Source of the DNA: a virus
Reading direction: 5' to 3' (one strand)
Length of the DNA stretch: 55,963 bases
Virus record (IMG/VR): IMGVR_UViG_3300035698_020076
Coordinates: 1 to 55,963 of that record
In this document: one piece after another, positions 30,834 through 49,087 of the stretch
Layout: the number at the start of each line of letters is the position of its first letter
Numbering within the stretch: the stretch's first letter is position 1
Notes under the pieces: generated by a model
The model's input: the letters and a program-made list of their open reading frames with translations, nothing else
What the model was told of the DNA's origin: nothing
Database searches by the model: none
Program-made: the position numbers and the translations under genes

Positions 30834-30841
30834 TATAAATA
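30834..30841 (+). promoter_or_regulatory. T4-type late promoter box
   Basis: TATAAATA upstream of the broken endonuclease at 30861, with AGGAG at 30847-30851. It may also serve the gene at 31590. Confidence 0.65.
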
Positions 30842-30860
30842 GTGCATAGGAGAAATTTTT

Positions 30861-31589
30861 ATGCGCCATTTTTACGTACATAACACGAAAAATTAATAGT
30901 GACAAATACTACGTTGGTCGACACTCAACGCAAAAAGAACCAGAAAAGGAAAAATATTTTGGGTCTGGTAAATGGGTAAGATCGATTAAAGATAAGTCTT
31001 TATTAATCCGGGAAATAATTGAATTTTTTGATACTGAAGAGCAATTAAAATCTGCTGAATTTAATTTAATAAAGAATCATATAGGTAAAACTGGTTGTAT
31101 GAATTTTAATGAAAATTCAGTAGGATTTAGTTCTATAAATAATCCTGCTAAAACAATTGAAGAACGTAAAAAACGCAGCGAAAGAACTAAAGGCAATAAA
31201 AATCCGATGTTTGGTAAAAAACATAGTTTAGAAATTAGAACTAGAAAATCAGAACAAATGAAATTATATAATCCATCACGTGATGATCCAGAAGTTAGGA
31301 AAAAAATAAGTCAACAACTTATGGGTAAAAACAAAGGAAAAGTTCGTACACAAGAGCTTAAAGATTTTTTTCAAAACAACGTAAACAACAATATGCTAAT
31401 GGCAGATTACCAAATAAAGGCTTTCTAGGTAAAAAGCATACTGAAGAATATAAAAAACATATGTCAATATTAGCTAAAAATAAACCAAATGTTTTATGTA
31501 AACATTGCGGAAAAGAAATGAAAAAACAATTACATGCTAGATGGCATGGTGATAATTGTAAGTTAAACACCAAATTAGGTCTATATTGA
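30861..31589 (+). pseudogene. Decayed GIY-YIG homing endonuclease
   Basis: ATG 30861 opens MRHFYVHNTKN and meets stops at about 30894. The GIY-YIG core continues in another frame (KYYVGRHSTQKEPEKEKYFG). NUMOD3-like units follow (NPMFGKKHS). A second shift occurs near the seven-T run at 31365-31371, after which frame three reads LGKKHTEEYKKHMS and ends in a zinc finger, CKHCGKE...HGDNCK. At least two frameshifts inactivate it unless they are sequencing errors. It sits between a late promoter and the gene at 31590. Confidence 0.8.
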
Positions 31590-40862: not shown

Positions 40863-41384
40863 ATGGCAAAATGGATTAAAAGAACTACGCGAAGCAGCTC
40901 TGGTAAGGTTGGTAAACAAAGATCTACCACATCACAGACATTAGGAGGGGGTACTACTCGTTCTAATAGTTCAAAGAGCGGCGACGTAAGGTATACCACA
41001 TCGCGAAAAATAAATAGCGCTGGTCGCATGGTCACTACATTACGTAAGACTCAGAATACCGGCGGGCTTAGAAGAACGCAGATAACAACAACAGCAGGGC
41101 ATGCAGCTCCAAAAATTACAAAGTACAAACCGAAAAAGACTCGGCGTTATAAAGCAAAAAAAAGAACAGCCGCTCAGCAGCGTGAATATGACGCAAAAAT
41201 GGAAGTATACAGAGCGGAAGCACTTATACGAAAAGCAGAAAAGCAAGCGCGACGCGAAGATCGGGATGATCGATGGAAAGAAAAATACGACCTATCTGAT
41301 AAAGATCTCTCGACCATTAAAATTTTATGGAAAGTGTTTTTTTATGTAATGGTCGGGGTTGTTGCCCTAGAAATATTTACTTAA
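40863..41384 (+). CDS. Highly basic late protein with C-terminal membrane anchor
   Basis: 173 residues. The first 90 residues are Ser/Thr/Arg/Lys-rich and probably disordered (MAKWIKRTTRSSSGKVGK). A charged helical region follows (EKQARREDRDDRWKEKYDLS), and a hydrophobic segment closes the protein (WKVFFYVMVGVVALEIF). Basic disordered proteins with a late promoter can bind DNA inside the head or at the membrane; no family is known to me. Confidence 0.6.
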   Translation: MAKWIKRTTRSSSGKVGKQRSTTSQTLGGGTTRSNSSKSGDVRYTTSRKINSAGRMVTTLRKTQNTGGLRRTQITTTAGHAAPKITKYKPKKTRRYKAKKRTAAQQREYDAKMEVYRAEALIRKAEKQARREDRDDRWKEKYDLSDKDLSTIKILWKVFFYVMVGVVALEIFT

Positions 41385-41900: not shown

Positions 41901-41973
41901 GCCAGTATAGCTCAGTTGGTAGAGCAACGGTCTTGTAAACCGTAGGTCCGGAGTTCGAGCCCCCGTGCTGGCA
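41901..41973 (+). tRNA. tRNA-Thr (anticodon TGT), CCA missing
   Basis: Acceptor GCCAGTA/TGCTGGC, anticodon loop CTTGTAA, T-arm CGGAG-TTCGAGC-CCCCG. The discriminator A is followed by CATAGAG instead of CCA, where the hairpin-endonuclease element begins. Confidence 0.93.
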
Positions 41974-41978
41974 CATAG

Positions 41979-42034
41979 AGTCCTAGGAAATTATAAATAG
42001 GCATAGATAAGACCTGTTATAATTTCCTAGGACT
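41979..42034 (+). promoter_or_regulatory. RBS-sequestering hairpin with embedded late promoter
   Basis: Perfect 18-bp arms 41979-41996 and 42017-42034. The right arm contains AGGA (42029-42032), the ribosome binding site of the TTG start at 42042. The left arm carries most of TATAAATA (41992-41999). Read-through RNA would hide the site; RNA begun at about 42005 would lack the left arm and expose it. Confidence 0.8.
41992..41999 (+). promoter_or_regulatory. T4-type late promoter box inside hairpin arm
   Basis: Exact TATAAATA overlapping the left arm of the hairpin upstream of the endonuclease gene. Confidence 0.75.
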
Positions 42035-42041
42035 ATAAACA

Positions 42042-42728
42042 TTGAAGTATACGATTTATAAAATTACAAATATTGTAAACGGAAAAATATATATTGGAAA
42101 ACATCAAACTAAAGATTTTAATGATGGGTATATGGGATCCGGAAAATACTTAAAACGAGCACAAGATAAACATGGTATTGAAAACTTTGAAAAAGAAATT
42201 ATATACGTTTTTGACACCGAAAAAGAAATGAATGGAAAAGAAGCGGAATTGGTTTCAGAAGAATTTTGCTTACGCGAAGACACATATAACATATGTGTTG
42301 GTGGTCAAGGCGGGTTTAGTTTTATAAACAGAGAAGTAATTACTAAATCAGATAGACAAAACCGTATGTTTGCTTGTAAAAAAACATTAAAAGAAAAATA
42401 TGGTGTGATTAATCCAGGACAATTAGAAGTAAGTAGGGAAGCAAACAGAAAAAAGTTTAAAGAGCTTCCTAAAAATCATGTCTTCTTAAAAAGTTTATTT
42501 AAAACAAATGATCCGAGACAAAAAATTGCAACTATTAATGCAAGGTCAAAAGAATCTATTGAAAAAAGAAAAAAAACCTTTAAACGAATAAATCACCAAC
42601 AAGGCAATTCTAATTCCCAATTTGGTTCATTTTGGATTACTGATGGAGAATTAAACAAAAAAATTAAAAAAGATGACCTTATACCACAGGGCTGGTATAA
42701 AGGAAGATTTCTTAAGAAAAAATTATAA
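42042..42728 (+). CDS. GIY-YIG homing endonuclease
   Basis: 228 residues from TTG 42042. The core MKYTIYKITNIVNGKIYIGK is followed by YMGSGKYLKRAQDKHGIENF with the catalytic region, then basic DNA-binding segments. The end, FGSFWITDGELNKKI then IPQGWYKGRFLK, resembles tails of seg-type endonucleases. The gene is AT-rich relative to its surroundings. Expression is probably restricted to late infection by the hairpin described upstream. Its decayed sister is at 48800-49080. Confidence 0.88.
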   Translation: MKYTIYKITNIVNGKIYIGKHQTKDFNDGYMGSGKYLKRAQDKHGIENFEKEIIYVFDTEKEMNGKEAELVSEEFCLREDTYNICVGGQGGFSFINREVITKSDRQNRMFACKKTLKEKYGVINPGQLEVSREANRKKFKELPKNHVFLKSLFKTNDPRQKIATINARSKESIEKRKKTFKRINHQQGNSNSQFGSFWITDGELNKKIKKDDLIPQGWYKGRFLKKKL

Positions 42729-42731
42729 ATA
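42724..42731 (+). promoter_or_regulatory. T4-type late promoter box before tRNA-Ala
   Basis: TATAAATA overlaps the endonuclease stop and ends six bases before the first base of tRNA-Ala, so a transcript could start at the tRNA 5' end. Confidence 0.55.
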
Positions 42732-42737
42732 GATCAC

Positions 42738-42813
42738 GGGGGATTAGCTCATCTGGGAGAGCATTTGCTTTGCAAGCAAAAGGCGATCGGTTCAAGTCCG
42801 ATATCCTCCACCA
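42738..42813 (+). tRNA. tRNA-Ala (anticodon TGC)
   Basis: Acceptor GGGGGAT/ATCCTCC, anticodon loop TTTGCAA, T-arm GATCGG-TTCAAGT-CCGAT, encoded CCA. Confidence 0.95.
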
Positions 42814-46380: not shown

Positions 46381-46476
46381 AATAGAGTCCTAGGAAATAA
46401 TATATAGGCGTAAGATAAGCCCTGTTATAATTTCCTAGGACTATAAACATAATGAAATAAACGATTTATAAAATTA
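46381..46476 (+). mobile_element. Remnant of the hairpin-endonuclease element
   Basis: Matches the leader of the element at 41974: GAGTCCTAGGAAA, CTGTTATAATTTCCTAGGAC, and ACGATTTATAAAATTAC. The hairpin base is partly lost and the endonuclease gene is gone; unrelated sequence follows at about 46477. Confidence 0.8.
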
Positions 46477-46515
46477 CCCATAATGAGTCAAATAAAATAT
46501 ACAAAGGAATTAAAC

Positions 46516-48731: not shown

Positions 48732-48736
48732 CATAG

Positions 48737-48792
48737 AGTCCTAGAAAGTTATAAAAAGGCAATAATAAGACCGATTATAACTTTCTAGGACT
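48737..48792 (+). promoter_or_regulatory. RBS-sequestering hairpin, second copy with compensatory changes
   Basis: Perfect 18-bp arms 48737-48754 and 48775-48792. Compared with 41979-42034, two base pairs differ and both partners changed together. The embedded late box is TATAAAAA (48750-48757). Confidence 0.8.
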
Positions 48793-48799
48793 ATAAACA

Positions 48800-49080
48800 T
48801 TGAAGTATACGATTTATAAAATTACAAATATTGTAAACGGAAAAATATATATTGGAAAACATCAAACTAAAGACTTAAATGATGTATATATGGGATCCGG
48901 GCTATATTTAAAAAGCGCAAAGCAAAAATAAAAATTGGACTTGCTAGCTCTAAATCACAAGCCGGTAATAGAAATTCTCAACACGGTACAATATGGATTA
49001 CAAATGGTAAAGAAAATAAAAAAATAAAAGCAGTTGATATTATACCAGAAACATGGTATAAAGGTAGAGTACTTAAATAA
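48800..49080 (+). pseudogene. Truncated GIY-YIG endonuclease
   Basis: TTG 48800 opens the same MKYTIYKITNIVNGKIYIGK core as the intact gene and stops at 48931. The conserved tail (GTIWITNGKENKKI, IPETWYKGRVLK) continues in another frame to 49080. About 130 codons of the middle are missing. Confidence 0.85.
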
Positions 49081-49087
49081 AGTTTAT

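Follow-up and report, generated by a model that had tools for sequence, protein, structure and literature searches.

The endonucleases I-TevI, I-TevII and I-TevIII are controlled at the RNA level: a hairpin in the early or middle RNA hides the ribosome binding site (RBS), which is freed by the use of an adjacent late promoter (PMC2988022). The late genes e and soc of T4 are silenced in the same way on early read-through RNA, and in gene e the 5' side of the hairpin holds the late promoter (PMC3014915). For T4 segB, a hairpin and a predicted late promoter have been published (Fig. 5 in PMC2988022), and the reviews of 2010 list it among the genes with this combination (PMC2988022; PMC3014915). 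Hairpin control of a free-standing endonuclease gene has been shown experimentally for mobE of Aeromonas phage Aeh1 (PMC3014915); for segB it is implied (PMC2988022). SegB itself was recently tied to the escape from tRNA-targeting bacterial defences. In the same study, an association with tRNAs across isotypes was published for 386 SegB homologues, mutation of Y17 or G19 inactivated T6 SegB, and overexpression of SegB inhibited the growth of E. coli (PMC13096335).

Here, we describe a free-standing SegB-type homing element at the 3' end of a phage tRNA that probably carries an early-off/late-on translational switch. It lies in part of a phage genome (IMG/VR record IMGVR_UViG_3300035698_020076, positions 1 to 55,963; the whole stretch of 55,963 nucleotides is called the window), in which 24 tRNA genes are predicted from 40.6 to 54.8 kb.

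Results

An intact SegB-type element between two tRNA genes

The element, copy 1 of three in the window, consists of the following parts; its 5' boundary was set by comparison with copies 2 and 3.

41901..41974, + strand: tRNA-Thr (tgt) without encoded CCA; discriminator A followed by CATAGAG
41975..42737, + strand: SegB-type element copy 1, intact; leader and ORF, filling the gap between tRNA-Thr and tRNA-Ala
41979..41996, + strand: 5' arm of the hairpin; all 18 positions form Watson-Crick pairs with the 3' arm
41992..41999, + strand: candidate T4-type late promoter box TATAAATA, a motif lying partly in the 5' arm and partly in the loop; an RNA from it would start near 42005-42006
42017..42034, + strand: 3' arm of the hairpin, paired with 41979-41996
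42029..42032, + strand: Shine-Dalgarno sequence AGGA, within the 3' arm
42042..42728, + strand: SegB-family GIY-YIG endonuclease of 228 aa; starts with TTG, has the catalytic residues Y17 and G19
42738..42813, + strand: tRNA-Ala (tgc), next gene downstream

T4 SegB is a full-length homologue of the encoded protein (42% identity in 233 aligned positions, E 7e-53), which reaches 26 bits with the Pfam family SegE_GIY-YIG (cut-off 25) and has the annotated segB of phage PP01 among its best full-length isolate matches. Y17 and G19 are invariant in an alignment (A1), and the location within a tRNA region, here between tRNA-Thr and tRNA-Ala, is that of the SegB family. An earlier note on this DNA had described a GIY-YIG endonuclease on a free-standing element behind tRNA genes. 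Since an Rfam search of 40.5-50 kb revealed no intron family and the flanks are intact tRNA genes, copy 1 does not belong to the intron-encoded class of I-TevI. Apart from a 65-bp match in Streptomyces phages, nucleotide similarity led to no nearby phage, and hence to no empty counterpart of the site in the window; the empty sites described below come from Klebsiella and T-even phages.

Outside the tRNA cluster, at about 30860-31180 of the window, a distant GIY-YIG domain (31% identity) is encoded, with TATAAATA just upstream at 30834.

A hairpin over the RBS with a late box inside it

The 91-nt RNA has a predicted fold of -29.8 kcal/mol, compared with -12.05 +/- 2.63 kcal/mol for 200 dinucleotide shuffles, none of which folded as well (z -6.75). 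The perfect 18-bp hairpin at 41979-42034 that had been claimed for this leader is indeed there, as is AGGA in its 3' arm nine bases before the TTG, and all coordinates given for them hold. The hairpin begins 4-5 nt 3' of tRNA-Thr and its stem ends 7 nt before the start codon; the choice of TTG is supported by a relative (L032) with ATG at the aligned position. Opening of the start region (-14 to +2) is predicted to cost 14.3 kcal/mol in the long RNA but 2.8 kcal/mol in the late RNA, so that, by folding, the stem sequesters the RBS. The exact hairpin DNA has no match in IMG/VR, which argues that the arms are not a conserved sequence, and the Rfam matches that reached the family gathering score were tRNAs only, without a leader family. 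A role of the hairpin as intrinsic terminator was considered and rejected, since it was not detected as such and no T run follows 3' of it; nor was an intrinsic terminator found on the + strand between tRNA-Thr and the endonuclease gene.

The late box had been assigned to the 5' arm. This applies to its first five bases, TATAA, which are in the stem, but ATA begins the loop. The proposed start of a late RNA near 42005 agrees with the predicted position, 6-7 nt after the box. All 17 occurrences of TATAAATA in the window are on the + strand, where 8.2 would be expected for both strands together; a control pattern gave 5 and 1. Seven of the 17 are 16-41 nt upstream of the ATG of an ORF. Judged by its motif, TATAAATA fits a T4-type late promoter of this phage, and box position and strand bias together suggest a promoter placed such that the late RNA would lack the 5' arm. 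The earlier note also had the gene transcribed early from the tRNA promoter. This was not confirmed: between 39.7 and 43.5 kb, sigma-70-like matches are no more numerous than chance would give (8, with 8.4 expected) and the search revealed no early promoter. Early transcription from the tRNA promoter is something we infer.

Two decayed copies and an unrelated gene of the same design

The three SegB-type elements of the window are located behind tRNA-Thr, tRNA-Met and tRNA-Asn, and copies 2 and 3 are decayed. The same design was also found before an unrelated ORF.

46382..46508, + strand: copy 2, 5' fragment behind tRNA-Met; stem 16/18, late box decayed, frame stopped at codon 3
48733..49087, + strand: copy 3, with an internal deletion, behind tRNA-Asn; stem 18/18, late box reads TATAAAAA
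40835..40866, + strand: hairpin before ORF 40863-41384, which is unrelated; the 5' arm holds the late box, the 3' arm AAGGAAG and ATG

Compared with copy 1, the stem of copy 3 has two compensated pair changes, and this dead copy has kept a perfect stem although ORF and late box are broken. For ORF 40863-41384, whose hairpin is 211 nt after a tRNA, the predicted opening of the start region costs 16.6 kcal/mol in the long and 0.6 kcal/mol in the late RNA. This layout fits a general device for late genes on early tRNA transcripts.

The layout is conserved among relatives while the arms are rewritten

Relatives were collected from IMG/VR, at first 23 and then 80, which gave 105 distinct leaders; most of these begin directly behind a tRNA. 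Three forms recur. In the first, represented by copy 1, a long stem stops short of the start codon; in the second, the stem continues across the ATG into the coding sequence (for example, with an arm from -6 to +7); in the third, that of T4 segB, the stem is short and has Shine-Dalgarno sequence and ATG in the loop or 3' arm. A first, loose criterion of six paired bases did not separate leaders from shuffles (61% versus 51%); with the stem score, which replaced it after this result was seen, 61 of 104 leaders reach at least 11 over the start region (shuffles, 3.2%). Of the 61, 47 have a NNTAAATA box so positioned that a late RNA starting about 7 nt after it would lose the 5' arm (shuffles, 5.4%). 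Some of the leaders are from related phages, and these counts and those that follow are therefore not fully independent. The median predicted opening of the start region in the 71 SegB-family leaders with a box is 14.4 kcal/mol for the long and 3.4 kcal/mol for the late RNA, whereas 35 other late genes have 7.2 and 2.9 kcal/mol (p 7e-8 versus the SegB-family leaders). Contigs with box-bearing leaders have strand ratios of TATAAATA of 36:5, 17:5 and 9:0.

The arms are only 35% identical between members, but an arm is 92% complementary to the one it pairs with, compared with 45% when arms are swapped. For this comparison and for the covariation below, the best register was chosen leader by leader, and the null for identity and complementarity was treated in the same way. 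At least 12 of 14 positions are paired in 25 of 54 leaders (3.4% in the null). Among 30 leaders, 178 double-changed cells were counted versus 57 in shuffles, and the covariation score is 0.969, compared with 0.233 in shuffles and at most 0.225 when the arms were slid. G-U pairs make up 2.9% of the pairs, and the stems are thus almost purely Watson-Crick.

Fourteen strong hairpins lack a box, ten of them in loci L011-L030. In this group the hairpin covers the ATG, no promoter was recognised, and TATAAATA has no clear strand bias in four of its contigs (G001-G004). Hence, the hairpin is not tied to the T4 late promoter. In the same relatives, the 5' arm or loop of these strong hairpins contains TATTTAT. 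This motif was rejected as a substitute promoter of the clade L013-L030, since it lacks a strand bias.

Insertion at tRNA 3' ends

Among tRNAs at most 75 nt upstream of a relative, 5 of 63 encode CCA, whereas 555 of 645 other tRNAs of the same loci do (p 3e-38); CCA is lacking in 58 of the 63 and in 14% of the others. The junction, found behind 17 isotypes, usually reads discriminator-CATAG or -CATAA. The element is present in Klebsiella phage Nispero and its site is empty in the sister phage vB_VIPKPNOM02, whose upstream flank is 99.5% identical: the empty site reads tRNA-Met ...CCGCCTCCA-AATAA-tRNA-Gln and the occupied one ...CCGCCTC-element-AATAA, so that the insertion splits CCA. T-even phages have the same loss of CCA at segB, with tRNA-Tyr and tRNA-Asn replaced. 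The pairs L119/L121 and L117/L122 show a SegB-type insertion splitting or removing the CCA encoded by the tRNA in front of it. The endonuclease ORF extends into the following tRNA gene in 18 loci (L047, L052, L063, L080, L088, L091, L099, L105 and others), often by exactly 10 nt and with a stop codon, TAG, that belongs to the tRNA's own sequence.

T6 SegB cleaves at the motif RAWTSGAAC (PMC13096335). By our own reading, this is the reverse complement of GTTCSAWTY, which would be the T-loop consensus of tRNAs; the paper itself speaks of neither a T-loop nor a T-arm, and an exact match to the motif is absent in the three tRNAs that host the copies in the window. If true, this identity would explain insertion near any tRNA 3' end.

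Discussion

The hairpin, the box, the gene, the insertion point and the family-wide conservation of the layout are seen directly. We propose that they work as follows. A read-through RNA from the upstream tRNA genes would fold the 18-bp hairpin, the RBS would be hidden and no endonuclease would be made. Later in infection, the late RNA polymerase would start at TATAAATA within the hairpin, giving an RNA that begins in the loop and lacks the 5' arm; AGGA would be open and the endonuclease would be made, to cut and home at a time when many genome copies and repair enzymes are present. The logic of the switch, with the long RNA predicted to be closed and the late RNA to be open, is well supported by the energetics and by about 100 relatives. 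The enzyme under the switch would cut inside tRNA sequences and be toxic on overexpression, and the growth inhibition of E. coli by SegB offers a reason for tight control. Since SegB is tied to the escape from tRNA-targeting defences, the timing of its switch-on would also bear on this escape (PMC13096335).

Some observations speak against the switch. Stems with so few G-U pairs could also come from copying of a palindrome at the DNA level, and copy 3 has a perfect stem despite its broken ORF and box. In addition, hairpins are kept in the L011-L030 clade without T4-type late boxes, and the late promoter is therefore not the sole use of such a hairpin. A further point is that the search for an early promoter gave none. 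For a role in tRNA processing or purely at the DNA level, which we consider less likely, the scarcity of G-U pairs and the stem kept by dead copy 3 are the strongest points. The hairpin could mainly serve tRNA maturation or RNA stability by marking or protecting the 3' side of tRNA-Thr, or the 5' end that arises when the CCA-less tRNA is cut off, with coverage of the RBS as a by-product of the short gap. The distance of 4-5 nt to the tRNA, the lack of CCA in 58 of 63 upstream tRNAs and the stems kept by both dead copies would agree with this. However, hairpins also cover the start region in L078 and L107, where no tRNA was detected within about 130 nt, and before ORF 40863, far behind its tRNA; in other leaders the 3' arm extends over the ATG into the coding sequence (-6 to +7), and the late box inside the hairpin (47 of 61) is left unexplained. 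Such a function is improbable.

Slightly more improbable still is that the palindrome is a DNA feature, either an operator bound by the endonuclease or a relic kept by template switching. I-TevI does repress its own late promoter via an overlapping operator (PMC2988022), the palindromes are perfect with very few G-U pairs, and compensated changes distinguish copies 1 and 3 of one genome. But with arms 35% identical between members there is no conserved binding sequence, copy 2 has uncorrected mismatches, and the arms consistently cover the Shine-Dalgarno sequence or the start codon. That hairpin and box are accidental or without function, with the gene expressed as its neighbours are, is scarcely credible in view of the z-score of -6.75 and the strong conservation with covariation across the family, even though the other two copies of the cluster are dead. 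The translational switch thus is the reading we prefer.

On balance, we favour a broader view, in which the SegB-family genes make up a large class of mobile elements with a specificity for the 3' ends of tRNA genes in phages. By this view, every insertion splits the encoded CCA of the tRNA before it, and the element often ends within or at the following tRNA. It would be able to multiply inside a tRNA cluster and would bring its own early-off/late-on RNA switch, with arms that are continually rewritten while selection maintains their pairing. With its CCA split, the phage tRNA would depend on a CCA-adding enzyme, which would be a price of carrying the element. CCA-splitting insertion and turnover of the arms are not mentioned in the literature searched, outside of which are the original SegB and mobE papers, and their novelty is provisional.

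How does copy 1 compare with the known systems? The earlier note had called its control I-TevI-like. The control logic is indeed that of I-TevI, I-TevII and I-TevIII, but these are encoded in group I introns, whereas copy 1 has tRNA flanks and no detected intron, and its nearest relative is T4 segB, not I-TevI. Aeh1 mobE shares with copy 1 the free-standing endonuclease and the RBS-sequestering hairpin (PMC3014915), but it is an HNH and not a GIY-YIG nuclease and resides inside nrdA, not at a tRNA. T4 e and soc share the hairpin on early read-through RNA but do not encode endonucleases; ORF 40863 may be a case like these. T4 segB is closest: it is a homologous free-standing GIY-YIG gene between tRNA genes (tRNA-Ile and tRNA-Arg in T4), its upstream tRNA lacks CCA, and its leader folds over late box, Shine-Dalgarno sequence and ATG. 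Copy 1 differs in its longer, perfect 18-bp stem, in its unrelated arms, in its stem end before the TTG where the T4 stem covers the ATG, and in the presence of three copies in one tRNA cluster. The free-standing setting next to tRNA genes that the earlier note had pointed out is not new, as hairpin and predicted late promoter of T4 segB were already published (PMC2988022). The switch of copy 1 repeats the known segB design, and its value is as an entry to a rule of the whole family, in which the same timing device is kept through turnover of the sequence.
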